NCBI GenBank assembly: GCA_016871015.1
Contig: VFZX01000041.1
Coordinates: 1 to 32,643 of the forward strand
Reading direction: 5' to 3'
DNA from: Acidobacteriota bacterium
Lineage (GTDB): Bacteria > Acidobacteriota > Terriglobia > Bryobacterales > Bryobacteraceae
Length of the DNA stretch: 32,643 nucleotides
Shown: positions 1-30,203 of the stretch, piece by piece
Layout of the letters: each line of letters starts with the position of its first letter
Numbering within the stretch: position 1 is the stretch's first letter
Program-made: the position numbers and the translations under genes
Notes under the pieces: model-generated
Told to the model about the DNA's origin: nothing
What the model saw: the letters and a program-made list of their open reading frames with translations, nothing else
Database searches by the model: none

Positions 1-74
1 AGGATCAACGGGCCGGTTCGCATTGCTACTAGGAGGGTTCGGCGGATTACAGGCACAGCAGTAGAGGCGTCCGG

Positions 75-168
75 CTAGATGGTCACGCTTTTTCGTCCTG
101 GAGCCATCTAGGCAGGGTACTGAACCAGCTGTGCGATTTCGCTAAGGCAGCAGCGGAGGTAGCCTACC
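75..168 (+). promoter_or_regulatory. Structured 5' leader of the exopolysaccharide operon (class unknown)
   Basis: Three inverted repeats lie between the window edge and the first start codon. CTAGATGG (75-82) pairs perfectly with CCATCTAG (104-111). GCTG (128-131) pairs with CAGC (148-151) and encloses GCG/CGC (133-135 with 140-142). GGTAG (158-162) pairs with CTACC (164-168). The spacing and order suggest a folded 5' UTR, possibly a riboswitch or protein-binding leader. I could not match it to the c-di-GMP-I (GEMM) core or another riboswitch class I know. A weak GGAG (174-177) sits 13 nt before the ATG at 191. The hairpins are seen; the regulatory role is inferred. Confidence 0.4.
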
Positions 169-190
169 ATATCGGAGCTATCCAAACAAA

Positions 191-2260
191 ATGAGATTCA
201 CCGCCCTCCTCACAATCGCACTACTGGCGTCGACGGCCGAAGCAGGCCACAAACGCGCAAAACCACCGGTGACCGCTGTCGCGCCGGTGAATGATGACGA
301 TTCCCCAAAAAAGAACCGGCCATTGGCGCCCGTGATCACAACAAACACGACAAACGCCATGGCCACTACCGCAACTCCCGCCTTCCGGCCTCTACGGATG
401 AAGCTCCTGGTTCTCGCCGCCGATGGAAACGAACCGGGGTTCGCCGCGATCCGGTCCACGCTGGACCACATGGGCACTCCCTACGACGCCGTCGTGACCA
501 GCCAGCAGCCGTTGCCTCCGCTCTTCACCACCGACAGGGGACTCTATCAGGGCATCATCCTGACCACGGGCAACCTGGGGTTCTTCGACGGAACGGGATA
601 CCGCAGCGCCCTGTCCCCCGGGTCCTGGGCCGCCCTGGATGCTTATGCCCGCGACTACCGGGTGCGCACCGTCAGCTATTACACCTTCCCCGAGGCCCGC
701 TACGGTCTCGCCTACACTGGAGCCAGAACCACGACATCCGCTTCACCAGTGGAGGCCTCGATCCCCTCGGCTGGCCAACCGCTATTCAGCTATCTCCGTT
801 CTGGCGCCACAGTCAAGATCGCAAACGCTTACCTTTACCTTGCTAATCCGGTTACCGCAACAGGCGAGACGACCACCCGTATCATGACGATTGCCGGGTC
901 GACCGCGGGGGTGATCCACACCAAGGCAGATGGACGGGAGTACCTCGCGCTTACCTTTGACCAAAGCCCCCATCTGCGCCATTCGATGCTTCTCAACTAC
1001 GGACTGATCGACTGGGTCGCCCGCGGAGTCTTTCTCGGGTCCCGCCGGATCTACCTCTCGCCGCAGAATGACGATCTGTTTCTTTCAAGCGACCTCTTTG
1101 TGTCCAACATCCCAGCCTGCCAGCCAGTTGGCGCCGCCGCTGATCCGACGTTCGATCCGGCAGATGCATGTCCTCTGATCCGGATGTCGGGGAGCGACGT
1201 GAAAAGTTTGGAGGACTGGCAGGGCAAGGTCAGAGACCGTAGCCAGACGAAGGGCTTCCGGGTGTCGATGGCCTACAACGGATTCGGGACAACCACGGCC
1301 AGCGGAGCCGCCTCGAACGATCCACTGACGAAAGAAGCCAGAGCCCGGCGGAAGGACTTTTTCTGGGTTTCCCACACCTGGGACCACGAGAATCTCGACT
1401 GCTTCAACCCAGTGCCAAACAGTGGGATCTGCCGTAGCGCCACCTACGCGGAGTCCCTCTTTGAAATAGACGAGAACCGGAAGCTGGCCACGGCGATCGA
1501 CCTTCCGCTCGACACCACCAGCATGGTGACACCGGGAATCTCGGGTCTCAACAACCCCGGGTTCATGCTTGCCGCCTATACACGCGGCATCCGCTACCTG
1601 GTCACCGATACCTCCCGCCCTGGCGGATCTCCGGCGATTCCCAACACCGGCATTGTTAGCCCGCTCCAGCCAGGCATTCTCTTGATCCCACGGCGCGCGA
1701 CCAACATCTTCTACAACGTGCACGTTCCAACCCTCGGAGCCGTTGGATCCGAACCGGACGAATACAACTTCTTCTTCGGCCCGAACGGCATCTTCCGGGT
1801 TGGCGGCCCAGGCGGGCCTCCGTTCTTCACCACGAACCAGAGCTATGCCCAGATCATCGACCGCGAGAGCGACGCATTAATTTCCTACATGCTCCGCTTC
1901 GAGATGTACGGTTCGATGTTCCATCAGGCGAATTTTGTCCGCCACACGGGGTCAGCTTCTTTGTTTACGAACCTGATGGACAATACGTTCTCGAAGTTCG
2001 CCGAGCTGTGCAACCTTCCGATCGAGAGCCTCCAGCAGTCCGAGATTGGAGCCAAACTGCGCGCCCGGATGGCGTTTCTGGCGTCGGGCGCCACCGGCCT
2101 GTACACGCCGGGATCCGGTTCAATCACACTGTCTTCTCCGGTCGCAGTCAAGATCCCGGTGACCGGCGCTTGTGGTGGAACCTGCGAGACCTATGGTGGG
2201 GAGAGCCAAAGCGAAGTCACTGTGTCCGCCGGGGGCACGGTCCGGGTCTCGGTGAACTAA
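191..2260 (+). CDS. Secreted Agd3-like (CE18-type) polysaccharide deacetylase
   Basis: A 689-residue protein with an N-terminal signal peptide (hydrophobic stretch at about residues 4-18, small residues before the mature HKRAK). A Rossmann-like N-terminal part starts near MKLLVLAADG. The deacetylase part carries the two metal-site signatures of CE4-like enzymes: NDD at residues 293-295 and HTWDH at 395-399 (HxxxH). The whole arrangement resembles Agd3, the deacetylase acting on fungal galactosaminogalactan. The predicted role is removal of N-acetyl groups from an exported amino-sugar polymer, outside the inner membrane. It is the first gene of an operon containing PelF- and PelG-like genes, and its TAA is followed directly by the next ATG. 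A PelA-type hydrolase domain is not apparent. The deacetylase fold is fairly sure; the exact substrate is inferred. Confidence 0.72.
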   Translation: MRFTALLTIALLASTAEAGHKRAKPPVTAVAPVNDDDSPKKNRPLAPVITTNTTNAMATTATPAFRPLRMKLLVLAADGNEPGFAAIRSTLDHMGTPYDAVVTSQQPLPPLFTTDRGLYQGIILTTGNLGFFDGTGYRSALSPGSWAALDAYARDYRVRTVSYYTFPEARYGLAYTGARTTTSASPVEASIPSAGQPLFSYLRSGATVKIANAYLYLANPVTATGETTTRIMTIAGSTAGVIHTKADGREYLALTFDQSPHLRHSMLLNYGLIDWVARGVFLGSRRIYLSPQNDDLFLSSDLFVSNIPACQPVGAAADPTFDPADACPLIRMSGSDVKSLEDWQGKVRDRSQTKGFRVSMAYNGFGTTTASGAASNDPLTKEARARRKDFFWVSHTWDHENLDCFNPVPNSGICRSATYAESLFEIDENRKLATAIDLPLDTTSMVTPGISGLNNPGFMLAAYTRGIRYLVTDTSRPGGSPAIPNTGIVSPLQPGILLIPRRATNIFYNVHVPTLGAVGSEPDEYNFFFGPNGIFRVGGPGGPPFFTTNQSYAQIIDRESDALISYMLRFEMYGSMFHQANFVRHTGSASLFTNLMDNTFSKFAELCNLPIESLQQSEIGAKLRARMAFLASGATGLYTPGSGSITLSSPVAVKIPVTGACGGTCETYGGESQSEVTVSAGGTVRVSVN

Positions 2261-3544
2261 ATGGCGCTGTTCGAACGCACCCTGGTACGCGCCGGCCTGG
2301 TGGCGGTAGTGGCAATCACTGCCGCCGCGATGGACTCCGGGGTCCTGACGCTATCAGCGGCGGTGGAGGCCGCGGGACGCCGCGCCAAGCAGGAAAAGCT
2401 CCGGCTGGATCTCGCACAGGCGCAGGTCCGCATGCTCGAAGCGATGAACCGGACGCGAGTCGACTTCCGCCCAGGATTCAGCCTGTTCTCTTTTACCAAT
2501 CCCCTGCTGCTTGCTACTTCGATCGGCTCGGGATTCTCGATCGGAAAGCCGAACGCGCCATCGCCATTCACCCTGCACAACGCCTGGTTTGAAGTGCTCG
2601 AAGCCGAGCTCGCCGCCGAAAAAGCCAGAGTCCGCGCCGAAGGAGAAGCTGTCCGCGCATACTTCCGCCTTCTCGAAAAGCAACAGCTCTCAGGCCGGGC
2701 CAAGTCGCTCGCCGCTTCGGTGGAAGGCTACGGACTCGAAGCAGAGCGGTTGCTCCGGGAGGCGCGCATCACGGAACTCGACCGGCTCCAGACCTCACAG
2801 CGGATCCTCGACTTGAAGTCCGCCGCCATTGAAGCGGAGTCGGCCCGGCGGGACGCGGCCATCCGGCTCGCGAGCCTGACAGGGATGGAGGACTTCGAAC
2901 GCCTCCGGGTTCCCGACGAAACCAGCCAGCCCTCACGCGACCTTCACCAGGCTGGCAAGATCGAAGCCATCTGGGGAAACCGCGGGGACCTCCGCCTTCT
3001 GCGCGACCGGGCTGGCGACCTGCGGAGAATGAAAGCACGCCGGTCCCCTGGGAATGTCCAGGTGGGATTCGGGCGCGTCAGCGGAGTACGCGGGTCCCGC
3101 GCCGCTGCCAACAACTTCCTTCTCGGCGGCAATACGGGACGAATCGATTTCAACCTCGGGTTCCCGTTGACCCGGACCGGAGAGAAGGAGGCCGCGAACG
3201 AGGTGCTGGACGTACGCCTCAAGATGATCGAAGCGGAAATCGAGCGGCTGGAGCAAGACGTCCGCACGGAGCTCATGACCCTGCGCTCGGCTGCGGCGGC
3301 GGCCGAGGAACGTGCCGGCTTGGCGCACCAGCGGTGGCTGAATGCATCCAAGGCCCGCGAGCTTATCGCTGCCCGTGTCGACGCCGGGCTTGAGTCCCGG
3401 CCAGCACTGCTCTCCGGCGACTTGGCCGCGTTTGAAGCCTATGCTGGCCACTTGGCGGCCGGTTACCTGTACCAATCGTATTTACGGATTATCAACGCCC
3501 CGGCCGAACCTCCGGCCGCCGGTGAAGGAGGATCAGGTGAGTAA
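2261..3544 (+). CDS. TolC-like outer-membrane efflux protein
   Basis: A 427-residue protein with a hydrophobic N-terminus (about residues 9-23, probable signal peptide). Long heptad-rich helices follow, such as LEAELAAEKARVRAEGEAVR, in two similar halves, as in the outer-membrane efflux (OEP/TolC) family. The length is slightly short for TolC but normal for the family. These proteins form trimeric outer-membrane channels with a periplasmic helical barrel. The ATG follows the deacetylase stop codon with no spacer, and the 3' end overlaps the next gene by 8 bp, so translation is probably coupled. In this operon it may be the outer-membrane exit for the polymer, a job done by PelB/PelC in Pseudomonas; that role is inferred. 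The start is probable, though no strong ribosome binding site precedes it. Confidence 0.75.
   Translation: MALFERTLVRAGLVAVVAITAAAMDSGVLTLSAAVEAAGRRAKQEKLRLDLAQAQVRMLEAMNRTRVDFRPGFSLFSFTNPLLLATSIGSGFSIGKPNAPSPFTLHNAWFEVLEAELAAEKARVRAEGEAVRAYFRLLEKQQLSGRAKSLAASVEGYGLEAERLLREARITELDRLQTSQRILDLKSAAIEAESARRDAAIRLASLTGMEDFERLRVPDETSQPSRDLHQAGKIEAIWGNRGDLRLLRDRAGDLRRMKARRSPGNVQVGFGRVSGVRGSRAAANNFLLGGNTGRIDFNLGFPLTRTGEKEAANEVLDVRLKMIEAEIERLEQDVRTELMTLRSAAAAAEERAGLAHQRWLNASKARELIAARVDAGLESRPALLSGDLAAFEAYAGHLAAGYLYQSYLRIINAPAEPPAAGEGGSGE
3525..3531 (+). promoter_or_regulatory. Ribosome binding site deciding a GTG start
   Basis: AAGGAGG lies 5 nt before the GTG at 3537, inside the end of the TolC-like gene. 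It supports the GTG start for the adaptor over the upstream in-frame ATG at 3342, which lies deep within the preceding gene. Confidence 0.8.
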
Positions 3545-4688
3545 GGTCCGGATTGTTGGGACCCAGAACGGGTTCTCAGGAGCTCGAGTTGAGCGCATCG
3601 CCCGCACTGTGCAACAAAATGCTTGGGTGGGTGTGAAGGCGCTATTCGCCGTGACGCTAGCCGGAGCGGTGCTGTTAAGCGCGGCCAAACGGCCGGCAGC
3701 GGGTCCCACGGCTCAGGAAACGGTTCTGCCCGCACTGGTCCACCCGGGCGCAGTACAGGACGTTGCGGCCGGCGCGCCCGGCAAGATAACCGCGATCCAT
3801 GTCCAACCCGGTGCATGGGTGGAGGAGGGTGCGCTGCTCGCGGAGATCGAGAACAGCGAGTTGGAAAGCGATCTCGATCTGGCCCGGGGCCGGCTCTCCG
3901 CGGTTCGCAAGCGCATGGCTCTGGAGGGATCGGCTGGCGTGGCGCCTCGCGCCCGGCTCAAGGCGGCGGAAGCGCAACTCAAGGCGGCGTTGCGCGCGCG
4001 CGATTCCGCGCGCAACCGGATGAAGGCCATTTCGGCGGAGATCGACGCCAGTGGGAACGGTCGCGCGCACCAGATGGTGCAACGCGTCCGTGATCTGGCG
4101 GCCAAGAGACTGGCAACCGCGGCGGAGCTTGATGCCGCCGAACTCGCCGCCGAGAATGAGCGCCGGGCGGGTTCCGACCGCCGCGATACCCGCTCGCGGA
4201 TTGCGCAGGAAGCCGAAGCCGCCGAGGGCCAGGTGACGCTGGCGCAGCTTCAGATCGACACGCTCCGCGCGGGGTCAGGTAGCGCGACGGATATCGATGT
4301 CCGGGAGGCGGAATCGGCTATTGCGAAGCTTGAGCGGCGGATCGCCGCGCTTCGCGTGACGGCTCCGCGCGCGGGCCAGGTGTCGTTCGTGAACGCCTCC
4401 GATGGAGGCGCCGCCGTCGAAGGCCTGGTGCTCTTCCGAATCAACGACTCACACCGTCTGCTTTTTGAAGTGAGCGCGCCACCCTCAATCGCACGGGACG
4501 TCCGCCAGGGAGATCCGGTGACCGTCCGCGTGCCGCTGGATCCGCCAGTGGAAGTTGAGGCCAAGGTGGATGAAGTCGTATGGACGCCGCATTTATCCCA
4601 CGGCTACTCAATCCGGGTGCGCGTCGACAACCCCGATCCAGCGGCGCTCGTCGCGGGGCTCGAGGGTTCCGTCGGCTTCCGTCATTGA
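3537..4688 (+). CDS. HlyD/membrane-fusion-type periplasmic adaptor
   Basis: A 383-residue protein read from GTG. It has an N-terminal membrane anchor at about residues 30-50. A biotinyl-lipoyl-like half motif follows (GKITAIHVQPGAWVEEGALL). Next is a long alanine- and arginine-rich coiled coil, then the second lipoyl half (LRVTAPRAGQVSFVNASDGG) and a beta-barrel region (VRQGDPVTVRVPLDPPVEVE). This order is diagnostic of HlyD/RND membrane-fusion proteins, which bridge an inner-membrane transporter and a TolC channel. It sits between the TolC-like and PelF-like genes, and no ABC or RND pump lies beside it. It therefore may link the PelG-like transporter to the outer-membrane channel; that pairing is an inference. 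Confidence 0.75.
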   Translation: MSKVRIVGTQNGFSGARVERIARTVQQNAWVGVKALFAVTLAGAVLLSAAKRPAAGPTAQETVLPALVHPGAVQDVAAGAPGKITAIHVQPGAWVEEGALLAEIENSELESDLDLARGRLSAVRKRMALEGSAGVAPRARLKAAEAQLKAALRARDSARNRMKAISAEIDASGNGRAHQMVQRVRDLAAKRLATAAELDAAELAAENERRAGSDRRDTRSRIAQEAEAAEGQVTLAQLQIDTLRAGSGSATDIDVREAESAIAKLERRIAALRVTAPRAGQVSFVNASDGGAAVEGLVLFRINDSHRLLFEVSAPPSIARDVRQGDPVTVRVPLDPPVEVEAKVDEVVWTPHLSHGYSIRVRVDNPDPAALVAGLEGSVGFRH

Positions 4689-4695
4689 CATCCAC

Positions 4696-6168
4696 ATGAC
4701 CTCCCGCCCTTCCATCCTGCTTTGCACTGAGGGAACCTACCCGCACTACCTGGGCGGCGTCAGCGTCTGGTGTGAGCAGTTAATCTCGAACATCCCCGAG
4801 GCGGACTTTCATGTCCTGTCGGTGGTCCACACACCGGTGCAGCCGGTTCGTTTCAAACTCCCGGCGAACGTAGTCTCGGTGACGCCGGTCGCGCTGTGGG
4901 GAACGGAATTCCCAGGGGACCGTTGCGAGCCCGTTTCCGAGCTCAGCGCGCGGCGTGCGGCGACGGTACCGGCGGTGATCGCGGAGCGATTCGTTCCACC
5001 GTTCCGGTCGGTGGTCCGTTCGATCCTCAACTCGGGTGCGAACCCGGATGCGCTCGGGCGCGCATTGCTCGATCTCCACGGCTACTTCCAGTCCTTCGAC
5101 CTATATCAGTCGTTCTGCGGCCAGGCCTGGGAGGCGTTCCTCGGAGAGATCGCCGAATGCCCACGGTTCCGCGGCATGACTCTCGCGGAAGCATCCATGT
5201 GCCTGGGATGGCTGGCGCGATTCTTCTCCATTCTCACCACTCCCCTGCCACGCGCCACCGTGACCCACTCCTCGCTCGCTGGGCTGGCGGGCATTCCGGG
5301 AGTTCTGCTGCGGATCCGGGACGGCGTCCCCTACGTTCTCTCCGAGCACGGGATCCTGCTGCGCGAGGTCTATGCGAGCATGGCAAACTCCGAGTATCCC
5401 GACGCGTGCCGCGCGTTTCTCATCGCCTACCACCGGGCCATCGCCGCGGCCAATTACCACTTCGCCGATGTCATCACGTCCTTGGGCGATTTCAACGCCG
5501 GATGGCAGAAGCGCTTCGGAGCCCACCCAGGCAAGATCCGCTACATGCCCAACGGAGTGGATCCGCGCCGGTTCCTTTGCGCTCCGGCTCCGGCCCCCCG
5601 GCCTACCGTCTTGACCCTGGCCCGCATCTATGCCCTGAAGGGCATCACGAACCTGATCGAGTCCGCCGCGATTGTCCGCCGGTCCGTTCCCAACGTCCGG
5701 TTCCGGATCCTCGGCGAGATTGCCGACATCGACTACTTCGATGAATGCAAGGCGCTGGTGGCGCGGCACGGGCTGCAGGACCACATCGAGTTCTGCGAGT
5801 CGGACAATCCGGCCGAGGAGTACCGGAGCGCCTGGGTATACTGCCTTCCAAGCGTCTCGGAGGCGATGCCGTTCGTGATTCTGGAGGCGATGATGAGCGG
5901 ATGCCCGGTGGTTGCCACCAACGTCGGCAATGTCGCCCAGACACTGGGCCAGTGCGGTCTGCTTGCGCAGCCCAATAATCCGCTCGACCTGGCGGCGCAG
6001 CTTGTAACGCTGCTTCAAGGTCCCCACGCGCCGGAGCTTCGCTCCCGCCTGGCCAGCAGCGGCATGCAGCGGGCCAGGGCAACCTTCACGATCGAGGCCG
6101 CGACCGGCCGCTTCCGCGAACTCTACCAGGAGATTACCAAATGTCGACACCTGTCCCTGGTGTGTTGA
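4696..6168 (+). CDS. pelF: PelF-like GT4 glycosyltransferase
   Basis: A 490-residue protein, close to the roughly 500 residues of PelF. The N-terminus carries the PelF signature ILLCTEGTYPHYLGGVSVW and a long N-terminal domain. The C-terminal half is a GT-B family 4 domain with the nucleotide-sugar loop around RIYALKGITNLIESA and the EX7E motif (E389...E397, in SEAMPFVILEAM). PelF is the cytoplasmic UDP-sugar polymerase of the Pel exopolysaccharide, probably using UDP-GalNAc. The ATG at 4696 is 7 nt after the HlyD stop. The longer frame from 4555 would run inside the adaptor gene and is rejected. It overlaps the PelG-like gene by 28 bp, matching the pelF-pelG order seen in pel operons. The family call is strong; the sugar specificity is inferred. 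Confidence 0.82.
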   Translation: MTSRPSILLCTEGTYPHYLGGVSVWCEQLISNIPEADFHVLSVVHTPVQPVRFKLPANVVSVTPVALWGTEFPGDRCEPVSELSARRAATVPAVIAERFVPPFRSVVRSILNSGANPDALGRALLDLHGYFQSFDLYQSFCGQAWEAFLGEIAECPRFRGMTLAEASMCLGWLARFFSILTTPLPRATVTHSSLAGLAGIPGVLLRIRDGVPYVLSEHGILLREVYASMANSEYPDACRAFLIAYHRAIAAANYHFADVITSLGDFNAGWQKRFGAHPGKIRYMPNGVDPRRFLCAPAPAPRPTVLTLARIYALKGITNLIESAAIVRRSVPNVRFRILGEIADIDYFDECKALVARHGLQDHIEFCESDNPAEEYRSAWVYCLPSVSEAMPFVILEAMMSGCPVVATNVGNVAQTLGQCGLLAQPNNPLDLAAQLVTLLQGPHAPELRSRLASSGMQRARATFTIEAATGRFRELYQEITKCRHLSLVC

Positions 6169-7655
6169 CCGGCCCGCGGATGCCCGATTCACGGGCGCCG
6201 ATCGACGAATTTGACGTCGCGGTCAGACTCGAAACCCAAGGCGTCACAGACGAAGTTGCCCACGCCCTTTACGGATACGGGAGCACGATGCGGATGGCGG
6301 TGGCCGAGTTCCCGCGCATGGCCAGCGAGGCTTCCGGCCTACGGGTGCCGGCGCCCTCCGAATCGTGGTTGAAGGCCTTTCTGCACGGCGCGTCCTACGC
6401 CGTGCCGATGTTCATCTCGGCTCTCGCGATCGCGCTACAAGGATTTTCTCTCTGGGGTGGAGACCTGGAAGGCGAGACCGCGTCGGCGGTCGCCGTGGGT
6501 GTGGTAGCGAGCTTCATCCTTGCCGGCGGATTCGTCCAGGGGCTGGCATTGCGCATGTCGTTCTACCTGGGGATCGGTGAGCATTCGAGCGCCGTGAAAG
6601 TAGCGGGGCTATGGTCCGGCGCCGGAATGCTGTTTCTGTGCTCCGCGTCAGCGGTGTTCTTGGCGGTCAATACTCTTTTCCGCTGGATGCCGTTTTCGCT
6701 TGGCGTCACCTCCGCTGGATTCGCGATCTCGCTCGGAGCCCTCTTCCTCGCATCGGCTGCGCTCTACGTGCTTGAGATGCGATTGGCCGTGGCGGGCGCA
6801 ACACTGGCGGGCCTGGCGGTTACAACAGTGTGTGTCCGCATCCTCGATCAGCCGGTGCTGCCGGGCCAGTTCCTCGGCATATGGACCGCCACCGGAGCGG
6901 CCGTGGCCGCCGCATGGTCCAGGCTCGGACCGCTCTGCCGCCAGTCCACCACCACGATCCGGACATTCACTGTCGCGCGTGAGACGCTGATCGCCTGGGC
7001 AAGCGCGGCGGCGGGCGTGTTGTACTACTTGCTGCTATTCTCCGACCGGATGATAGCGTGGACCGCGGGCACCCAGGCCGCGCTCCTTCCCGTCATGTTC
7101 CGGGGCGACTACGAGACCGCGGTAGGACTGGCCATGATCCTATTCGTCCTGGGCGCCGGATGGGTACATGCCAGTACAGCTGCTTTCCGCCACTGGGCGC
7201 AGGATTCCCGGACCGTCGCCAGTGCCGCCGAGCCCTGGCGCTTGAACCAGAACGCCGGCCGGCGCCTGCTGGGCGGTATCCCCTTGTTTCTGCCGCTGCC
7301 TGTGCTTGGCGCGGTTGCCATCTATTACACCGCACAGAGCCTGGATCTGCTGTCAAGTCCGGAAATGGAACGCGTCCTCGTGGTTGCCCTAACGGCGTAT
7401 CCGCTGCTTGTGATCGGCCTGTGGGGACGCTCGATTCTCGAGATGCTCAACCTGGTGCACCACGGGCTGCTTCCGGCTGCCGCCGCGGTGTTGGCCGACC
7501 TGGTCATCGGCTACGTGCTAACGCGGACCGGGACCTACAGTCTCGCGATCTATAGCTTTCTCTGCGGTTCAGCGGTTTTCGCCGCGGGCATGATCCTCGC
7601 CGCCCGGCGGGCGTGCCGCCAGTTCGATCACCACTACTTTGCCGCCCATCTCTGA
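6141..7655 (+). CDS. pelG: PelG-like polysaccharide transporter (polytopic membrane protein)
   Basis: A 504-residue protein with roughly 80 soluble residues at the N-terminus followed by about 12 hydrophobic segments. AGGAG (6128-6132) lies 8 nt before the ATG, inside the pelF-like gene. A segment containing VLYYLLLFSDRMIAW resembles the conserved tyrosine/tryptophan-rich helix of PelG, the inner-membrane MOP-type protein that works with PelF to synthesise and export Pel. The order pelF then pelG with overlapping ends is the strongest support. The soluble N-terminal extension is unlike typical PelG, which begins close to its first helix. It could instead be another MOP-superfamily flippase; the PelG call is moderately sure. 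Confidence 0.62.
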   Translation: MSTPVPGVLTGPRMPDSRAPIDEFDVAVRLETQGVTDEVAHALYGYGSTMRMAVAEFPRMASEASGLRVPAPSESWLKAFLHGASYAVPMFISALAIALQGFSLWGGDLEGETASAVAVGVVASFILAGGFVQGLALRMSFYLGIGEHSSAVKVAGLWSGAGMLFLCSASAVFLAVNTLFRWMPFSLGVTSAGFAISLGALFLASAALYVLEMRLAVAGATLAGLAVTTVCVRILDQPVLPGQFLGIWTATGAAVAAAWSRLGPLCRQSTTTIRTFTVARETLIAWASAAAGVLYYLLLFSDRMIAWTAGTQAALLPVMFRGDYETAVGLAMILFVLGAGWVHASTAAFRHWAQDSRTVASAAEPWRLNQNAGRRLLGGIPLFLPLPVLGAVAIYYTAQSLDLLSSPEMERVLVVALTAYPLLVIGLWGRSILEMLNLVHHGLLPAAAAVLADLVIGYVLTRTGTYSLAIYSFLCGSAVFAAGMILAARRACRQFDHHYFAAHL

Positions 7656-7657
7656 GC

Positions 7658-9112
7658 ATGGACTACTCACACATCCACACTCTTGCAGGACTCCTCCGGC
7701 TCACGCTGGGAGGCTGCCTGATTTTCCTCGTGCTTCCCTACCTGGCGGTCCGCGGGCCCAAGCCCCGGCTCCGGCCCTGGTATGAGGACATGGCGGCCGG
7801 ATTCACCAGGGTCAGCTTCTGCTTGCTGTTCGGGATCGCAGCGCTGGGATATTTCAGAGCCGCCCTTCCAGGCGCCGGCTTGGTGCTCTATGTGGGTTGG
7901 CTCGCGGCCGCCGCGCTGCCATCGCGATGGCATGGCTTGCTCCCGGGTGCGGCGATCCGTACGCGGATCTTCACGTTCCTCGAATCCCCCCGGCCGCTGT
8001 TCCGGGCAGCCTTGCGGTGGGAGCCTATTCCAGAGCCGCTGATGGCGTTCTTCGTGGTACTAGCGGTCTCGGCGTTCGCATATGGCGCGTCTTTGCTGTT
8101 GCCCGGATTCCGCTTCATCCGGCCAGGAGACGCGGAACAGGCTCTGTCGTTGTACGCTTTGACATCTGGGGCGGAATGGGATGCGAATCCGCATGTTGTG
8201 TTGCTCGCTCCGTTGACGTGGTTCCTTGGAGCGGGAGCTCCCGCGGCCGTAAGGCTGGACACGGCACTGCAGCTTGTTCTGCTCTCGTTCTCGATTTTCG
8301 CCTGCGCGATGCGGTACGCCCCGGCCGCTGCCACCGGGCAGGTAGCCGCCGGATTGGGATTGGTGGCCTGGGTGGTAGCGGAAGGTCCTCTGTCTCAGCG
8401 TTCCGCCGCGCCTGAGCTCACCGCGATTTTCGCGCTGCTGGCCGCTGCCCGCGCGGGCAGATCGTGGACTGATTCGGGACTGGCATTGCTGTCGATGGTG
8501 TACACCGGCGCGGACCGGCCGGTCCTGCTTTGGCTCGCCGCCGCTGCCGCCATCGTGGCCTGGGTAATCGCAATCGCACCGGCGCGCTGGATCACGAGGC
8601 CATCCCTCGCCTGGACTCCGGCCCTGGCTCTGATCGTCTTCTCGGCGCAGGGCCGCCCCTCCACCCCGGAGACGTTTCAGTACGAGTCCGCCGCGCGCGC
8701 CACAGCCAAGATCGTGAGCGGGCAACGGGACCGCGACTGGATCCTGATCTCCTCAGGCCAGGAGGCCGCCCAGATCGCAGGCCACGGATGGCATGTGCCG
8801 CTTGCCGGGTTGGTCGCCCGGATGGAGCAGGGCGGCGAGCCAGCGATGCCCTACCAGGCCCGCAATGTGTTCGTGCTGATTGAGCGGCGTCCGTTGCGGA
8901 CGGGGCTCCGCAGCCTGGCGCCGGGATCCGGTGATCCCGCCTACTTTGAAGCGACTGACGCCGGCCGTGCGAGTCTCCATTTCCGCGCGGCGCGCCTGAT
9001 GGCACGCTATGCGGCGCTGTTCCCGGAAACGGAAATCTACTACCAGGACGAAGATGTGGTGGTCTACCGGATCAATGCAGCAGAAGCACCGAACAGGGAG
9101 CGTTCCAGGTGA
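7658..9112 (+). CDS. Unrecognised polytopic membrane protein of the exopolysaccharide operon
   Basis: A 484-residue protein that I do not recognise. About ten hydrophobic segments occupy residues 1-340. A soluble C-terminal domain of about 140 residues follows, starting near TPETFQYESAARATAKIVSG and ending RINAAEAPNRERSR. The layout resembles membrane glycosyltransferase-like or Wzy-like proteins with a terminal periplasmic domain, but I see no diagnostic motif. The ATG at 7658 is 2 nt after the pelG-like stop, so it is probably the last gene of the operon. It may replace the regulatory or assembly role of PelD or PelE, which are absent here; that is speculation. Its last 41 bp overlap the 3' end of the opposing universal stress gene. 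Confidence 0.6.
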   Translation: MDYSHIHTLAGLLRLTLGGCLIFLVLPYLAVRGPKPRLRPWYEDMAAGFTRVSFCLLFGIAALGYFRAALPGAGLVLYVGWLAAAALPSRWHGLLPGAAIRTRIFTFLESPRPLFRAALRWEPIPEPLMAFFVVLAVSAFAYGASLLLPGFRFIRPGDAEQALSLYALTSGAEWDANPHVVLLAPLTWFLGAGAPAAVRLDTALQLVLLSFSIFACAMRYAPAAATGQVAAGLGLVAWVVAEGPLSQRSAAPELTAIFALLAAARAGRSWTDSGLALLSMVYTGADRPVLLWLAAAAAIVAWVIAIAPARWITRPSLAWTPALALIVFSAQGRPSTPETFQYESAARATAKIVSGQRDRDWILISSGQEAAQIAGHGWHVPLAGLVARMEQGGEPAMPYQARNVFVLIERRPLRTGLRSLAPGSGDPAYFEATDAGRASLHFRAARLMARYAALFPETEIYYQDEDVVVYRINAAEAPNRERSR

Positions 9113-9935
9113 CCTTGGCGGAGACGCTGCCGAGCATCCGGTGTTTCAAGTCGCACTCTCCCGAGGACATAAGCACCACCAGGTCATAGTCGCCCGAATT
9201 GGCCTCGGACAGGATCTCGTCGGCTGGCACGCCGCTGCGGATGACTGTGTTGACCGATACTTCGCGCGGAAGCTTGTCCCTTGCGCTTTCGAGGAACGAC
9301 TGGGCTTCGGTGGCCAGCTCCCGTTCCCACTCCGAGTGCGGTTCCCCGGCGAGGTCCCAGTCGAGGTCGCCTTCGGTGTCCTGAACATCGACCGGACGCA
9401 CCCAATGCGCCTCCACGACGTGCATCAGGGTGACTTCGCCGCACTGGCCCACAAGGTCCATCGCCTTCGCCAAGCCCTCCAGGCCCGTCTCGGAGCCATC
9501 CAGTGGCGCCAGGATCTTAAGTGGTCCTTCCGATGCGCCGGGCCGCGCGACCAGGACCGTCGAGGCCGCGTGCTCCACAACCCGGCTCGCCACGGGGCCC
9601 AACCCGGCCGCAGGCGTCCCCTGGCGGCTCGCCGCGGCGATTGCCAGCACATCGTGGTCCTGGGTCGCGCGGATGAGGATCCGCGAAGGCGATCCGCTCT
9701 GGGCCGAATCGCGCACCCGGACTCCCTCTTCGGCCAAACTGTTTGCTACCCGCGCGGCAATTGCGGCGGCGCGCCGCTCGAGGCGGTGCGCGAGTCCGGC
9801 GCGCTTGGGGTGGACCTTTGGGGCGATGCAGACCAGTTCCACTTCCGAACCCGCCGCTGGGAGGATCCGGCATGCCGAGCGCAGGCTTTCGACGCTTTGA
9901 CGCGCTCCATCTGTTGCCATCAGGATCTTGATCAT
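9072..9935 (-). CDS. Tandem-domain universal stress protein (UspA family)
   Basis: A 287-residue protein with two Usp repeats. The first begins MIKILMATDGA and the second near LKILAPLDGSETGLEG. Each shows the family beta-strand/Asp start and a C-terminal glycine-rich nucleotide-binding stretch; the second is clear (LGSVSAKVTWNAPCSVLLL). Usp proteins are cytoplasmic and often bind ATP, and they support survival under stress. The ATG at 9935 is preferred over the TTG at 9947 because GAGG (9941-9944) lies 5 nt upstream. The gene is last in a groEL-baeRF-usp operon, with an 8-nt gap from the baeRF stop. Its 3' end overlaps the opposing membrane-protein gene by 41 bp. Confidence 0.85.
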   Translation of the reverse strand: MIKILMATDGARQSVESLRSACRILPAAGSEVELVCIAPKVHPKRAGLAHRLERRAAAIAARVANSLAEEGVRVRDSAQSGSPSRILIRATQDHDVLAIAAASRQGTPAAGLGPVASRVVEHAASTVLVARPGASEGPLKILAPLDGSETGLEGLAKAMDLVGQCGEVTLMHVVEAHWVRPVDVQDTEGDLDWDLAGEPHSEWERELATEAQSFLESARDKLPREVSVNTVIRSGVPADEILSEANSGDYDLVVLMSSGECDLKHRMLGSVSAKVTWNAPCSVLLLH

Positions 9936-9943
9936 GGCGGCCC

Positions 9944-11071
9944 TCAATACCGAAGCAGGGCGGCCAGCGCGACGCCCTTGGGCATCATCGAACCGGGCAG
10001 CATGAACACCCTCCCGCCGTAGCGCAGCGTTTCAGAGACAGCGGCATTCACCAGGTCCTCCTTGACTTGGCCTTGCCGCGAAGCGGCACCGGTCACTTCA
10101 ACGTCCTCAGCCGCGATCAACTCGTGCACCCGCCCCGCCTTGGCCGCGTTGAGCACGGCATGCACTCCTGTCCGTGCGCGGCGGCGGTCCGGCTGCTCGC
10201 GAAGATACTCCAAGGCCGCGGCTCCCAGCCCCCTGTAGTTTTCCTCGGCGGCCTGCAGGGCGCGTGGGCCGATCTCCGCAGCCGTCATGGCCTCGGCGTT
10301 CCCCACGATCTCCGGCCCCAGGATGTTGGCATGCTTTGCCACCTTCTTGTAGAGCGCGGCTTCTTCGTGGACTCCGGCCAGGACCAGCGGCCGGTCGCGC
10401 AGGAGCCCTTTCAATCCGCGATCCAACAACGCGAAGAAATGGCGCAAATGGCTCTGCGCCTTTTCACGCTCCGAAGATGTGCCAAAATGCACGGACTTCA
10501 TCGAACCAGTGGACGGTCCGGCCGCCGAACGGTTTTCCAAATCATGATCCGGCGTGTCGAACGCGGTCGCCTCATCGACACTTGCGGGCACGCCTTCTGG
10601 CAGCGGCGTCTCCGAACATCGGCCCTCATGGCAGCGGTACAGCTTCACGTTGTTGCGGCTCAGCCCGAGGACGAACATCTCTTGCCGGGTCACGGCGCCC
10701 TTGATCAGCGGAGCGAGCCGGAAATGGGGACCAGCGGTCACACTGGCTTCGGCCACATCAGGAGCAGAAGCCGCAAGGAACGAGCCTGGGGACCGGAATA
10801 GCGCATAGCCTTCACCACCGGAATGGTCATTGACCGATTCGGCGAACTCCTCAACTGGCACCATCAAATCAGCGGGCGGGACGTGGAGTTTCGCCAATTC
10901 CTTGGCGGCGGTCCGGATCATTCCGGCGATCAAAGTCGCGCGTCCTGGCTCCGCGGCGCCTGGGTGGCGTGGCGGAATCAGCATCGTGATGCAGGGTCCC
11001 TCGTGCGCGGCAAGGCGTTCGAGCATGGGCTCGTCGAGTCGAATCGTGGTTACTGGAACAGCGGCGGTCAT
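9944..11071 (-). CDS. baeRF-family (bacterial archaeo-eukaryotic release factor-like) protein
   Basis: A 375-residue protein. An N-terminal region contains HEGPCITMLIPPRHPGA. A middle domain has VLGLSRNNVKLYRC followed by HFFALLDRGLKGLLRDRP. An eRF1 domain-3-like C-terminus runs from ALEYLREQ through GRVHELIAAEDVEVTGAA to VNAAVSETLRYGGRVFMLPG. These are features of the baeRF families described as bacterial relatives of eukaryotic and archaeal eRF1, probably ribosome- or RNA-associated. The precise activity is unknown. GGGAGG lies about 6 nt upstream of the ATG. The gap to the groEL stop is 15 nt, so co-transcription with the chaperonin and Usp is likely. The context suggests a stress or translation-quality role. 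The subfamily is not assigned with certainty. Confidence 0.7.
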   Translation of the reverse strand: MTAAVPVTTIRLDEPMLERLAAHEGPCITMLIPPRHPGAAEPGRATLIAGMIRTAAKELAKLHVPPADLMVPVEEFAESVNDHSGGEGYALFRSPGSFLAASAPDVAEASVTAGPHFRLAPLIKGAVTRQEMFVLGLSRNNVKLYRCHEGRCSETPLPEGVPASVDEATAFDTPDHDLENRSAAGPSTGSMKSVHFGTSSEREKAQSHLRHFFALLDRGLKGLLRDRPLVLAGVHEEAALYKKVAKHANILGPEIVGNAEAMTAAEIGPRALQAAEENYRGLGAAALEYLREQPDRRRARTGVHAVLNAAKAGRVHELIAAEDVEVTGAASRQGQVKEDLVNAAVSETLRYGGRVFMLPGSMMPKGVALAALLRY

Positions 11072-11086
11072 ATTGGCCTCCCAGAT

Positions 11087-12712
11087 CTACGATGCAAGCT
11101 CGTGGCCAAATCCCGCGGGCGCTGGCTTCGTCTCCGGAACCTCGGTCAGGGTGGCCTCGGCCAGAAGCAGGACACTGGCCACGGACACGGCATTTTCGAG
11201 CGCAATCCGCACCACCTTGGCCGGATCGATGATGCCCGCCTCCATAAGGTCGGTGTATTGCCCCTTCGCCGCGTCGAAACCGAAATTCCCTGATCCGGAC
11301 CGCATGCGGTCCGCCACCACTCCGCCGTCGAACGCGGAATTCTCCGCGATCTGCCGGACGGGCGCCTCGAGTGCCCGTTTCAGGATCCGCAAACCTGTCC
11401 GTTCGTCGCCTTCCGTGAGGAGTTCCTCGCGTTCGACGGCGGCGGTCATGCGCAACAACGCCAGCCCCCCTCCCGGAACGATTCCTTCCGCGATTGCGGC
11501 CTTGGTGGCGTTGATCGCGTCGTCGTAGGCCTCCTTCAAGCTCTTCATCTCGGCTTCCGACGGCGCGCCCACGCGGATCACGGCAACGCCGCCGCTCAGC
11601 CGCGCCAGCCGCTCCCGCAGCTTCTCTTTGTCATAGCTTGACGTGGTCTCCTCGGCCTGGGCGCGCAGTTCGGCGATGCGGCCGTCGATGGCGCGTCTGT
11701 CTCCGGCGCCTCCGATGATCGTCGTGGTGTCGCGCGCGATCACCACGCGCTTGGCCGTGCCGAGCTGCCCGGGCTCGACGTTTTGGAGCTTCACGCCGAG
11801 CTCTTCGGCCACGGCTTCACCTCCGGTGAGAATAACGATGTCTTGAAGCATCGCTTTCCTGCGGTCGCCAAAACCCGGAGCCTTAACCGCGGCGCACGGC
11901 AGGACCCCGCGGAGCTTGTTCACCACCAGAGTCGCCAGCGCCTCAGCCTCGACGTCTTCGGCGATGATCAGCAGCGGGCGGCCGGACTTGGCGATCTGTT
12001 CGAGCAGCGGAAGCAGATCATTCATGTGCGAGATCTTCTTCTCGCTGAGCAAGATGTAGGGGTCGCTCAGCGTCGCCGTCATCTTTTCCGGATCCGTGAC
12101 GAAGTACGGTGAGCTGAATCCGCGGTCGAACTGCATCCCCTCCACAACCTCGAGCGTGGTTTCGGTTGTGCGCGACTCCTCGACCGTCACCACGCCGTCA
12201 GGACCGATCTTGTCGATCGCGCCCGCGACCATCTTCCCGACAACCGGGTTGTTGTGCGCGGAGATCGTGGCGACGTGCTCTTTTTCAACGCTCGATGCGA
12301 CGGGCCGCGCCAGCGCCTTCAGTGCCTCAACCGAGGCTTGGAGCCCGCGATCGAGACCTCGCTTCAAGTCGACCGCGCTGGCCCCGGCGGCGACATTGCG
12401 GACTCCCTCGGCCACGATCGCGTGGGCAAGGATTGTCGAAGTGCTGGTGCCGTCGCCGACCGCGTCACCCGTGCGCTCGGCTGCCTCGCGCAGCAGTTGG
12501 GCTCCGATATTCTCGGTGGGATCCTTAAGCTCCACCTCCTTCGCGATCGTGACCCCGTCATTGCACACCAGCGGTTTGCCGAACCGCTTCTCGATCAACA
12601 CACATTTGGACTTCGGCCCCAGCGTGACTCTGACCGCATCGGCGAGCGCGGTGGCTCCGCGGAGGACCTTTTCTCTGGCTTCGGACCGGAACAGAAATTG
12701 TTTGAAGGCCAT
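11087..12712 (-). CDS. groEL: GroEL-family 60 kDa chaperonin (secondary, no GGM tail)
   Basis: A 541-residue group I chaperonin that folds proteins in an ATP-driven ring. Conserved ATPase motifs are present: [41 protein letters not shown] and [10 protein letters not shown], which keep the key aspartates. The glycine-rich segment [16 protein letters not shown] is also present. The C-terminus ends AGFGHELAS and lacks the Gly-Gly-Met repeat of the main GroEL. No groES lies beside it. Both points suggest a secondary paralogue. ATG 12712 is chosen over the upstream frame start at 12766 because the protein then begins MAFKQF, and an AGAGGAG-type site lies about 8-9 nt before it. It heads the operon with baeRF and usp. 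Confidence 0.92.
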
Positions 12713-12773
12713 GTCGGTGAACTCTCCTCTACTGCCTGCAATGCACGCGTCATGCCAAACCACCACTCATTGC

Positions 12774-12785: not shown

Positions 12786-13568
12786 ATGGAGCCTGAAGAG
12801 CAACGGCAACTCCCTCTCAGCCAAGTCCGCGAACTGAAGCCCGGCAGCATGCACTACCGCGCCTACATCGGATCGGCCGGATCCTATGACGCCACCGCGG
12901 CCATGCAGTTCAACCTGATGACCGCGCTCGGACTCCGCGAGAAGCACACCCTGCTCGACATCGGTTGCGGCGGGCTGAGCGGAGGAAGGCTGTTCATTCC
13001 CTACCTTCTCCCGGACCACTATTTCGCGATCGAGCCCAATCCGTGGCTGGTGCAGGACGCCATCGCCAACGAGACCGGGAACGACCAGGTCCTGCTCAAG
13101 CGCCCGCAGTTTCTGCACAGCAGCGACTTCCCCCTGCACGCCTTCGGCCGCAAGTTTGACTACGTCCTCGCGCAGTCGATTCTGTCCCACACCTCTCGCA
13201 AGCAGATGGAACACTGCTTCCGGCAGGTACGGGATGTTCTGGAGCCGAAGGGGATCTTCGCCGCCAATCACGCGATCGGTGCCGCGTACGAGGGCGGCGA
13301 GTGGGTCTACCCGAACTTCGCCACGTATCCGACTGCGTTCCTGATCGACCGCGCCCAGGAAGCGGGGCTCAAGGCATTCCCGCTGATCTGGACCAACCAC
13401 TACTCCCTGATCTGGATGACTTTCGTGCGGGATGACTACCCCGGCGAGCTATCCTGGCTGGGCGCGAACACGGTGGAGCAGAAAGGAATGCGGATCCTCG
13501 AACTGTCATCCGAGAACGCCAAGCTCAAGCGGAAGCTCGCCGAAGCGGAAGCCAAGCTCAAAACTTAA
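12786..13568 (+). CDS. SAM-dependent class I methyltransferase with a C-terminal coiled coil
   Basis: A 260-residue protein. The SAM-binding motif I is LLDIGCGGLSGGRL, with the acidic ribose-binding region at FAIEPNPWLV. A later strand reads KFDYVLAQSILSHTS, as in methyltransferase type 11/25 families. The substrate is unknown. The last about 35 residues (LELSSENAKLKRKLAEAEAK) form a charged coiled coil, an add-on that could mediate oligomerisation. The ATG at 12786 lies 73 bp from the divergent groEL start, so the upstream part of the open frame is groEL antisense and is rejected. The stop overlaps the convergent sulfatase stop by 4 bp. Confidence 0.75.
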   Translation: MEPEEQRQLPLSQVRELKPGSMHYRAYIGSAGSYDATAAMQFNLMTALGLREKHTLLDIGCGGLSGGRLFIPYLLPDHYFAIEPNPWLVQDAIANETGNDQVLLKRPQFLHSSDFPLHAFGRKFDYVLAQSILSHTSRKQMEHCFRQVRDVLEPKGIFAANHAIGAAYEGGEWVYPNFATYPTAFLIDRAQEAGLKAFPLIWTNHYSLIWMTFVRDDYPGELSWLGANTVEQKGMRILELSSENAKLKRKLAEAEAKLKT

Positions 13569-15028
13569 TTAGAACGTGAAGCGTAACTGTAACCAGGGTT
13601 CGGCTTCGGCACCACGGCTTTCGTGCCGCCCAGGAAGCCCTCAATCAATGTGTTGAGCTCGGCTACCTTCGCCGGGTTGGCCCTGGCAAGGTTACGCGTT
13701 TCGCTCAGATCGTCGCGCAGATTGTAGAGCTCGAACCGGTCGGTCTGATCCTCGTTGTCGCACCAGAAGCGGATCAGCTTCCAGTCGCCGCGCCGGACAT
13801 AGGTCGCCGGACGCCCGCCGGTCACCGGCGTGTAGTGCGGGAAGTGCAGGAACACCGGTCCGCGGTCGTGCGAGCGTCCTTCAAGCGCGGGAACGAAGCT
13901 GACTCCGTCGATCTTGTGGCCCGGATGCGCGACACCAGCCATCGTGAGCAGCGTGGGATAGAAGTCGATGCTCTGGATGATCACACTGGAGACCGCGCCC
14001 GGCTTGGTCTTGCCCGGCCAGACGACGATGCATGGCTCGCGCGACCCGCCTTCATACGACGTCGCCTTTCCCGCGCGCAGCGGAGCATTGCTCGTGACCG
14101 GCGTGTTCGCGTACTCCGGATGCATCATTCCCGGCTTGCCCGGATTCCAGAAGACACCGCCGTTGTCGGAGAAGAACACGAAGATCGTGTTGTTGGCGAG
14201 GCCCGCCTCGTCCACGGCCTTCATCAATCGCCCCACGGCCTGGTCGAGACTCTCCACCATCGCGCCCGCGACCGGATTGTGCTGCGGATCGGTCAACTCC
14301 ACTTTGCGCGCGTACTTTGCCACCAGCTCAGGCTTCGCCTGCCACGGCGAGTGAACCGAAAACACCCAATAGTTCACGTAGAACGGCCCGCCCTTGTTGG
14401 CGGCGATGAATCGCTCCGCTTCTTCCGCCATGCGATCCTCGATGTGCTCGCCGGGTTTCCCTTGGCTGGGCCAGAACTTCCAGGGTCCGCCGAGATAGCC
14501 ACCCGCGGGTCCAGGACCTGGGAAGTGCGGCGTGTCCTGATCGAATCCCTGGTGCAGCGCGTCGTAGGGTTCCGAGCCCAGATGCCACTTGCCGAAGTGC
14601 GCCGTACGGTAGCCAGCGGACTTGAGCGTCTCGGCCAGCGTCACGTAGTCCTGCTTCAGCCGCGTGATCGAATTCGGCGTCAGCGCCTTGTGGTGCGGCT
14701 GGGCCTTCGGCGAAAGTGTCTGCTCGAGAATCACCTGCGGCAGGTGGCCCGCCGGAGTGGTGAATCCAAGCCGCGCCGGATACAGCCCGGTGAGGATGCT
14801 GGCGCGCGTCGGCGAGCAGATGGGCGCGGCGGCGTAGGCTTGCGTGAACCGCATTCCGCGGGCTGCAAGCCGGTCGATGTTCGGCGTCTCGTAGAAGTTG
14901 CTACCGTAGACCGAGGTATCGCGCCAGCCGAGGTCGTCGGCGAGGATGAAGATGATGTTAGGCCGCCGTTGCTGCGCGGACAGGGACGCCGCCACCGGCG
15001 TTGCGAGGAAGGCTCTGCGCGTGAGCAT
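13565..15028 (-). CDS. Secreted Cys-type sulfatase
   Basis: A 487-residue alkaline-phosphatase-superfamily sulfatase with a Tat-like signal (TRRAF at the N-terminus). The metal-binding aspartates sit in LADDLGW (D31, D32). The maturation motif is C71-S-P-T-R75, in which the cysteine becomes formylglycine. A downstream FFSDNGGVF completes the metal site. It hydrolyses sulfate esters, probably on sulfated polysaccharides, in the periplasm. The gene is last in the operon after the PPC-like gene, with a 4-nt gap. No formylglycine-generating enzyme or anaerobic maturase is adjacent; the FGE-like domain at the right edge of the window is part of a different protein. The class is sure; the substrate is unknown. 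Confidence 0.9.
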   Translation of the reverse strand: MLTRRAFLATPVAASLSAQQRRPNIIFILADDLGWRDTSVYGSNFYETPNIDRLAARGMRFTQAYAAAPICSPTRASILTGLYPARLGFTTPAGHLPQVILEQTLSPKAQPHHKALTPNSITRLKQDYVTLAETLKSAGYRTAHFGKWHLGSEPYDALHQGFDQDTPHFPGPGPAGGYLGGPWKFWPSQGKPGEHIEDRMAEEAERFIAANKGGPFYVNYWVFSVHSPWQAKPELVAKYARKVELTDPQHNPVAGAMVESLDQAVGRLMKAVDEAGLANNTIFVFFSDNGGVFWNPGKPGMMHPEYANTPVTSNAPLRAGKATSYEGGSREPCIVVWPGKTKPGAVSSVIIQSIDFYPTLLTMAGVAHPGHKIDGVSFVPALEGRSHDRGPVFLHFPHYTPVTGGRPATYVRRGDWKLIRFWCDNEDQTDRFELYNLRDDLSETRNLARANPAKVAELNTLIEGFLGGTKAVVPKPNPGYSYASRSN

Positions 15029-15032
15029 CCTC

Positions 15033-16829: not shown

Positions 16830-16835
16830 CGCCGT

Positions 16836-18089: not shown

Positions 18090-18101
18090 GATCCGGTCCT
18101 C

Positions 18102-27507: not shown

Positions 27508-27583
27508 TGGTGGGCCCTGTTGGATTCGAACCAACGACCAACGGATTATGAGTCCGCTGCACTAACCGCTGTGCTAAGGGCCC
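27508..27583 (-). tRNA. tRNA-Ile2 (anticodon CAU, lysidine type)
   Basis: A 76-nt cloverleaf including an encoded CCA. The acceptor GGGCCCT pairs with AGGGCCC. The D stem is GCAC/GTGC and the anticodon stem GCGGA/TCCGT, with loop CTCATAA (anticodon CAT). The T arm is GTTGG-TTCGAAT-CCAAC. A CAT anticodon could mean Met, fMet or Ile2. The start GGGCCCTTAGC and the ACTCATAAT anticodon arm closely resemble E. coli tRNA-Ile(CAU), so Ile2 is preferred. This tRNA needs TilS to make lysidine and then reads AUA codons. It is convergent with the oxidoreductase gene (16 nt between). Confidence 0.9.
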
Positions 27584-29780: not shown

Positions 29781-30203
29781 GTGGCCGCGCCATACGATAT
29801 CGAGCTCGCCGGGCAGTTGAGCGACCGCGCGGTCGAGCTGTCGATGCTGGGCGATGTCGAGGAGGCCTACGGCCGGCTTGACGCAGCAGCGAAGCTCTAT
29901 CACGAAGCGTTCGAAATCGGCGAAAGGGCCGCGGACGCCGTGGCAAGTCTGGATGCGCCTGAACCGGACCGCTCGGTCTACCACCGGAGTGGCGCGGCGC
30001 TTGCCGCTCAAGCCGGGAAGTACGAGGCCGCCGAAAAACTGATCCAGCGCGGGCTCCAGGGCGATCCTCCATTCAGCATCAAAACGGAACTGGAAGAGTT
30101 GCTCGGCGACCTCCCGATTCTCCGCACGACCAAAGTCAACCTCCGGAATCTACCACCGAGTCCGAGGTTGTGGCTCGTTCCAAACCGGCGCAATCATGCC
30201 TGA
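29781..30203 (+). CDS. Small helical TPR-like protein, partner of the NACHT gene
   Basis: A 140-residue protein read from GTG. Residues 7-45 (LAGQLSDRAVELSMLGDVEE to YHEAFEIGER) and about 75-95 (AALAAQAGKYEAAEKLIQRG) look like two separated TPR-type or MIT-like helical hairpins. I do not recognise a named family. The last 8 bp overlap the start of the DUF4062-NACHT gene, so the two are probably translated together and may act as a pair. A TACACT hexamer (29766-29771) lies 9 nt before the GTG and no strong ribosome binding site is present, so a short or absent leader is possible. Confidence 0.6.
   Translation: MAAPYDIELAGQLSDRAVELSMLGDVEEAYGRLDAAAKLYHEAFEIGERAADAVASLDAPEPDRSVYHRSGAALAAQAGKYEAAEKLIQRGLQGDPPFSIKTELEELLGDLPILRTTKVNLRNLPPSPRLWLVPNRRNHA

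Follow-up and report, generated by a model that had tools for sequence, protein, structure and literature searches.

The question raised by this locus is whether an operon that joins an Agd3-type deacetylase to PelF-type and PelG-like genes makes a polymer of its own and, if so, by which machinery. The locus lies at positions 191-9112 of a stretch of 32,643 nucleotides, here called the window, which is contig C41 (VFZX01000041.1) of an Acidobacteriota genome of the family Bryobacteraceae (GCA_016871015.1; 8.66 Mb in 720 contigs, G000 below). The evidence described here, drawn from sequence, indicates that the operon probably makes, modifies and exports a partly de-N-acetylated exopolysaccharide of the N-acetylgalactosamine (GalNAc) type.

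Organization of the operon

The operon is read from an uninterrupted run of six tightly spaced genes on the forward strand. In order, these encode an Agd3/CE18 deacetylase (191-2260), an outer-membrane efflux protein (OEP; 2261-3544), a HlyD adaptor (3537-4688), a PelF-type GT4 glycosyltransferase (4696-6168), a PelG-like transporter (6141-7655) and a conserved membrane protein, ORF6 (7658-9112). The successive junctions measure 0, -8, 7, -28 and 2 bases. The contig ends at the start of the window (G000:C41:1), and agd3 starts 190 bases downstream. The identical six-gene order is found in seven further genomes of the family (G001, G510, G538, G540, G555, G556 and G627), in which the proteins are roughly 24-72% identical to those of the window and the agd3 of G540 is broken. 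Because this order is kept in seven further genomes, the operon is more than chance, and a chance or frame artefact was rejected as its source. Promoter and terminator scans gave counts no higher than in shuffled sequences. A sequence-only reading of the window had picked out the Agd3, PelF and PelG-like genes, all of which are retained here, and had left the HlyD/OEP pair and ORF6 unnamed.

The Agd3-type deacetylase

The first gene (191-2260, forward strand) encodes a polysaccharide de-N-acetylase of 689 amino acids with CE18 and CBM87 domains. The assignment to the Agd3/CE18 type, made in the sequence-only reading, is borne out by Pfam scores of 70.6 bits for Agd3_CE and 65 bits for CBM87_Agd3, both above cut-offs of 27.6. 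Every one of the 20 aligned homologs has D294, D295, H395, H399, R501 and H578 unchanged, and the window protein has the catalytic motifs CM1-CM4 (DD, HxxxH, R and H), with the link between residues and motif names taken from the sections available of PMC12022489 and PMC13254593. The surveyed loci have 25 agd3 genes, with split copies counted once, of which 20 are in this alignment (A4); L040, L042, L048, L053 and L054 were left out as fused-frame, contig-edge, broken or very long frames. The Agd3 profile matches the solved Agd3 6nwz, the fungal protein used for comparison, at E 1.9e-51, and the motifs of the two line up; its matches to heparan N-deacetylase/sulfotransferase structures are weak. 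The protein is probably secreted, on the basis of a signal peptide judged by eye from the sequence. The six named relatives are from Acidobacteria or Bryobacterales metagenome-assembled genomes (MAGs).

Agd3_CE matches occur in 14 of the 237 genomes surveyed from the family, in 3 of 61 nearest relatives and in 2 of 396 phylum-wide genomes, each count including G000 itself. Several copies have unusual arrangements. In G015 and G581 (L006, L038), two and three agd3 copies stand around one OEP gene. At L048:8604-10550 and L053:50-2150, agd3 is split over frames or has an internal stop, and the block is otherwise near-complete. The agd3 of G519 contains one TAG and that of G540 gives two matches, for which decay and assembly error are both possible. 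Around the copies at L039, L051, L052 and L054, eight profiles gave no other match within the fetched stretch.

The PelF-type glycosyltransferase

The gene at 4696-6168 (forward strand) scores 154 bits against the NCBIfam PelF equivalog NF038011 (cut-off 100) and 141 bits against PF11997 (cut-off 23.3), which agrees with the PelF-like assignment of the sequence-only reading; it is the sole PelF above cut-off in its genome. The PelF proteins above cut-off in the family fall into two classes, a canonical class with 374-463 bits in nine genomes and an Agd3-type class with 118-180 bits in 13 genomes. A partial match in G016 (103 bits, profile positions 264-484) is over the cut-off and was counted in neither class.

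The two classes are also separated in a tree of 35 PelF sequences with four outgroups. Fourteen Acidobacteriota Agd3-type PelFs and seven Agd3-linked PelFs from Deinococcota and Actinomycetota plasmids form one clade (support 99/98), and the window PelF is one of these 21 rows. The nine canonical PelFs form a separate group (98/99) that includes one long-branch Paenarthrobacter row. The four outgroups, Paenarthrobacter, Cetobacterium and Thermus have long branches and their placement is unsure. Alignment A6 includes one canonical PelF (L041).

A search with the window PelF at 1e-30 matched 14 plasmid records, and the best 11 of these 14 are exactly the 11 non-Burkholderia records among the 13 plasmid records with Agd3. 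Two Burkholderia stagnalis loci have agd3 and no PelF match. In each of the seven loci read among the 11, pelF and agd3 are less than 5 kb apart (one record gives pelF another name), and an endo-alpha-1,4-polygalactosaminidase is annotated in six of the seven. The PelG-like profile matches the gene after pelF in three of the seven (D. ficus 42.5, Streptomyces 35.9 and D. aquaticus 21.9 bits). No HlyD or OEP profile match was found in the 21-26 kb fetched for each of the seven loci.

The transporter, adaptor and duct genes

The gene at 6141-7655 (forward strand) overlaps pelF by 28 bases, in the order seen in pel operons, as the sequence-only reading had stated. It is described as PelG-like from its fold and position and from a weak similarity in sequence. 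In its AlphaFold (AF2) model (mean pLDDT 84.7) the protein adopts a MATE/MOP-superfamily fold; the best structural match has Z 26.4, with 401 residues aligned at 3.8 A, and WzxE and MurJ are among the other matches. The name PelG-like was chosen because the PelG model PF16933 scores below its cut-off here, yet the structural model has the MATE/MOP fold. The earlier assignment is upheld as PelG-like only, and its sequence support is weaker than had been implied.

The HlyD/RND-type periplasmic adaptor gene (3537-4688, forward strand) matches HlyD_3 with 54.5 bits (cut-off 22.2) and HlyD_D23 with 49.3 bits (cut-off 30). The Pfam scan ran from position 3522 and the gene start was placed at 3537, at a GTG preceded by an AAGGAGG site. 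The protein has one N-terminal membrane helix at residues 29-51, and its profile matches the structures of MacA, MexA, EmrA and AcrA. The gene before it (2261-3544, forward strand) encodes a duct of the TolC-like OEP family, with 26.6 bits for PF02321 (cut-off 22). The adaptor and the outer-membrane duct families of a HlyD/TolC tripartite exporter are therefore both present in the operon.

The last gene, ORF6 (7658-9112, forward strand), encodes a conserved polytopic membrane protein with 24-57% identity to nine aligned relatives. No Pfam or NCBIfam family matched it, and a PDB sequence search returned nothing. For its AF2 model (mean pLDDT 71.7), the top 16 rows of a VIA-align search (Z 8.6-11.8, a range that the tool flags for helical models; best 8.3 A over 330 residues) are, judging by their titles, what we take to be GT-C enzymes or complexes holding one. 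Foldseek gave nothing at E <= 0.001 (best E 0.13). In GT-C enzymes an acidic residue of the first outer loop is conserved; in ORF6, whose topology is uncertain, no column from residue 148 to 200 has an acid in at least 8 of 10 rows. The model thus points to a possible GT-C-like fold, as a lead only.

Conservation of the parts across the family

Among the 237 family genomes, 13 have both Agd3 and an Agd3-type PelF, one has Agd3 alone, none has a PelF of this type alone and 223 have neither (Fisher p 1.6e-20 over genomes; at genus level 9 of 9, among 76 genera, p 7e-12; neither value is corrected for descent). The sole genome with Agd3 and no Agd3-type PelF is G485, in which Agd3 scores 28 bits. 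Among the nine genomes with a canonical PelF, Agd3 occurs in one (G556), and the other eight have no Agd3 genome-wide.

The HlyD-PelF-PelG block is contiguous in all 13 genomes with an Agd3-type PelF. In G015 and G581 this block and the Agd3-OEP-GH114 locus are on different contigs, so that each genome retains all of these parts at separate places. All 13 genomes have an OEP, which adjoins HlyD in 10. ORF6 follows PelG in 11 of 13, although the G581 copy is incomplete at the limit of the fetched stretch; it was not reached in G548, where the contig ends, or in G015, where the fetched stretch ends. Outside the family, G227 of the same phylum has Agd3, PelF, HlyD, PelG-like and ORF6 genes in a different order, and no OEP match was found at its locus.

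Two hydrolase genes accompany many of these loci. A GH114 gene, divergent from agd3, adjoins it in 9 of the 13 block genomes. One GH114 protein (L013:6836-8308, reverse strand) scores 172.8 bits for TIGR03437, the Solibacter uncharacterized C-terminal domain. Nine of the 13 genomes have a second, hydrolase-like gene at the locus, called gene A here. Seven of its nine members match Pfam GHL15 (best E 3.5e-10; first member 0.19), and its profile gives weak matches to GH114-type and PelA hydrolase structures. The G000 copy is at the end of contig C132 and runs off its right end. Because of this, and because the window begins 190 bases before agd3, these two contig ends probably adjoin; no overlap between them was found, and no firm similarity of window positions 1-190 to the upstream region of a relative.

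Canonical pel genes in the family

Canonical pel genes were looked for in G000 as assembled. A PelA protein query from a family member found no match at 1e-5 (1085 bits in the control genome G599), PelB none at 1e-10 (1472 bits in G599, with G556 also matching) and a PelD protein query none at 1e-5 (controls G599 and G556 matched); the PelD query gave one weak match of 31 bits, in G001. The PelD query replaced the PF16963 model, which was discarded after zero matches in 16 genomes and the controls and is uninformative because no control matched. PF16933 had no match in the search of G000, yet scored 395 bits on a canonical PelG of the same family. PelC and PelE are not among the six window genes, and no genome-wide search for them was made. 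With G556 set aside, the 12 remaining block genomes also gave no match to the PelA and PelB queries at the thresholds used. With the PelF, PF16933, PelA, PelB and PelD searches together, no canonical pel operon was found elsewhere in G000; both the lack of PelA and the lack of a full pelA-G operon agree with the sequence-only reading.

G556 (97% complete, 6% contamination) holds both an Agd3-type operon and a canonical-type pel operon, the latter on contig C57. Its canonical order is a PelA-like protein, a 1484-residue TPR protein (PelB match), a GAF protein (PelD match), a HEAT/TPR protein at the PelE position, PelF (428 bits), PelG (395 bits) and Agd3. Thus, at this side locus a PelA-like gene without its central deacetylase segment (L060:12484-14043) occurs with an agd3 directly after pelG (L041:9860-11908). 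The PelA-like protein has 519 residues, and the 742-residue PelA of G596 aligns with it over residues 4-265 and 552-726 and nowhere else. The PelA segments with HIDGDG and HTYSH, both kept in G596 and in G599, are altered in it or missing; neither G596 nor G599 has Agd3. Six other canonical loci were fetched. PelA is complete in G596 and G599 and has HIDGDG in each; in G595 a fragment of PelA stands at a contig edge, and the stretches of G533, G652 and G639 end before PelA. No Agd3 match was found in any of these six stretches. The simple reading of these gene contents suggests that Agd3 replaced PelA deacetylation in the G556 pel operon.

Proposed function and alternatives

In the proposed mechanism, PelF would build a GalNAc-type chain from a UDP-sugar in the cytoplasm, as its family suggests, and the PelG-like MOP protein would move it across the inner membrane. 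The HlyD adaptor would lead it on to the outer-membrane duct, the TolC-like OEP. Agd3, given its CE18 family and conserved catalytic residues, would strip acetyl groups during or after export, by which the polymer would become cationic and adhesive. Where present, the GH114 and GHL15-like hydrolases may trim the chain. The chances are about even for a wider proposal, that Acidobacteriota own a second, separately evolved GalNAc-polymer machine in which the PelG-like protein passes the chain to a HlyD-TolC-type duct in place of PelB/PelC, the product is matured by Agd3, and Agd3 and the PelA deacetylase are interchangeable.

Several observations weigh against the synthesis and export reading or its wider form. 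All of the analysis is prediction, mostly on MAG contigs. The window PelG-like protein has 17.2 bits for PF16933 (cut-off 29); among 11 aligned copies, two pass (39.8 and 29.2 bits), four score 17.2-28.6 bits and five have no match at E <= 1. An hhalign comparison of the PelG-like profile with one canonical PelG was not significant. Moreover, the weak PelG scores may be partly compositional, because the E1-E2_ATPase model, too, matches two of the relatives, at E 3.7e-06 and 0.026 and below its cut-off. The OEP score is just a few bits above its cut-off, and the OEP profile has a single weak match among solved structures (1yc9, E 0.028) and no firm relative there. HlyD and OEP may also serve another substrate. 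In addition, there is no sugar epimerase among the six genes, whereas several Deinococcus and Streptomyces loci have one; GH114 (PF03537) has no match in G000, with two controls matched; and the exchange of PelA deacetylation for Agd3 was seen in one genome.

One alternative is that this is an ordinary divergent Pel operon, which makes Pel with standard parts too diverged to recognize. The PelF score above the equivalog cut-off and the MOP-fold protein next to it would fit, as would the published description of Pel and the fungal polymer as both partly de-N-acetylated and GalNAc-rich (PMC7229062, in the part available). However, canonical pel operons are readily recognized in the same family, G556 carries both systems, the PelF tree gives two well-supported groups, and the PelA, PelB and PelD queries that were empty in G000 each matched the control G599, which makes a divergent Pel operon unlikely. 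The position of HlyD bears on a second alternative, that HlyD and OEP are a bystander efflux pair and the polymer exits through another duct. HlyD directly adjoins PelF in 13 of 13 genomes, even where Agd3 and OEP lie elsewhere, and no inner-membrane pump is among the six genes. Although both are generic efflux families, the G227 locus has HlyD and no OEP match, and the seven Deinococcota and Actinomycetota plasmid loci lack both in the stretches fetched, a bystander role is considered improbable. Actinomycetota are monoderm, and therefore a missing outer-membrane part is expected there.

The operon could also act on an outside polymer, such as fungal galactosaminogalactan in soil, without making one. 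Agd3 acts on the fungal polymer and soil habitats are shared, according to the available text of Bamford et al. (PMC7229062), and agd3 copies without an adjoining block exist (L039, L051 and L052). This reading is judged very unlikely, as the PelF glycosyltransferase and MOP transporter in the same operon indicate synthesis and 13 of the 14 Agd3-bearing family genomes carry an Agd3-type PelF. Synthesis, modification and export of a GalNAc-type polymer is therefore the reading preferred here.

Relation to known systems

The general kind, a bacterial agd3 exopolysaccharide operon, is already published. In the text available, Bamford et al. (2020; PMC7229062) describe operons in which homologs of Agd3 accompany a glycosyltransferase, a multi-spanning membrane protein and GH114 in bacteria, the last being highly consistent, though not universal, in or near these operons; some, in Gram-negatives, have Pel outer-membrane genes. 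The window shares agd3, the glycosyltransferase and the multi-spanning membrane protein with them. The operons named in that text are from Actinobacter, Deinococcus-Thermus and Proteobacteria, whereas the window is from Acidobacteriota and adds HlyD/OEP and ORF6. GH114, typical there, is missing from G000 but adjoins agd3 in 9 of 13 block genomes. Since such operons were published in 2020, and the seven plasmid loci also show agd3 with pelF, the claim of the sequence-only reading that the cluster would be a distinct variant is not supported as made; the arrangement was known in outline. The Acidobacteriota version with an in-operon HlyD/OEP route was not found in print and appears to be new. 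The open-access literature, which leaves most subscription journals outside and is weak evidence of absence, gave no report of Agd3 with HlyD and none of PelF and PelG with HlyD. The main text of a pel operon survey (PMC7112194), as far as available, mentions neither HlyD, TolC nor Acidobacter, and the paper found for Agd3 and Acidobacteria (PMC13245733) concerns, in its accessible part, the fungal polymer and rhizosphere bacteria.

The canonical pelABCDEFG operon has in common with the window a PelF-type GT4, an overlapping PelG-like MOP transporter and a polysaccharide deacetylase; G000 differs in having no PelA, PelB or PelD match in its genome and a PelF in the separate group. The fungal galactosaminogalactan cluster consists of uge3, gtb3, sph3, ega3 and agd3. 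There agd3 has a GH114 gene as its neighbour, which is also true of 9 of 13 relatives and not of G000, and to our knowledge the cluster has another synthase and no bacterial export parts. The PelA deacetylase belongs to CE21 (PMC12022489, available part). The Bacillus cereus pelDEA(DA)FG operon, as described in the sections available of PMC13254593, is similar in its pelFG genes and in a deacetylase with an N-terminal carbohydrate-binding domain, an Agd3-like arrangement; its PelADA is CE26/CBM114 rather than CE18, the organism is Gram-positive, and the operon has pelD and pelE. The cyanobacterial XcsA-XcsB-TolC cellulose model (PMC12430437, available part) likewise has a HlyD-like adaptor and a TolC duct for a synthase-made polysaccharide. 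It differs in its BcsA-type synthase and in the lack of a single operon for the three parts, and this export route is proposed there and called unconfirmed by experiment.

Other features of the window

A row on the reverse strand (9072-12766) holds a two-domain Usp gene, a baeRF (bacterial archaeo-eukaryotic release factor-like) family 3 gene (9944-11071, 92 bits) and a gene (11087-12766) that its sequence marks as GroEL-like. A second reverse-strand row (13565-20483) has a sulfatase, a 598-residue protein without a Pfam family over cut-off, and DUF1501 and DUF1549/DUF1553 genes; the gene at 27660-29108 has homologs in common with this DUF1501 gene. A tRNA gene at 27511-27583 (reverse strand) is the sole Rfam match above gathering score in the window. 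At the far end (30196-32643, forward strand), running off the contig, is a DUF4062-NACHT-FGE-sulfatase protein, a STAND-type ATPase with a possible conflict or defence role; PADLOC gave weak ATPase matches only.

Implications

If the proposed function is correct, cationic GalNAc-type polymers would extend to a major soil phylum, and the operon would be an operon-encoded test case for TolC-type polysaccharide export. In addition, the natural exchange in G556, with the PelA deacetylase lost and Agd3 added, would make the deacetylation chemistry shared by Pel and the fungal polymer directly testable.

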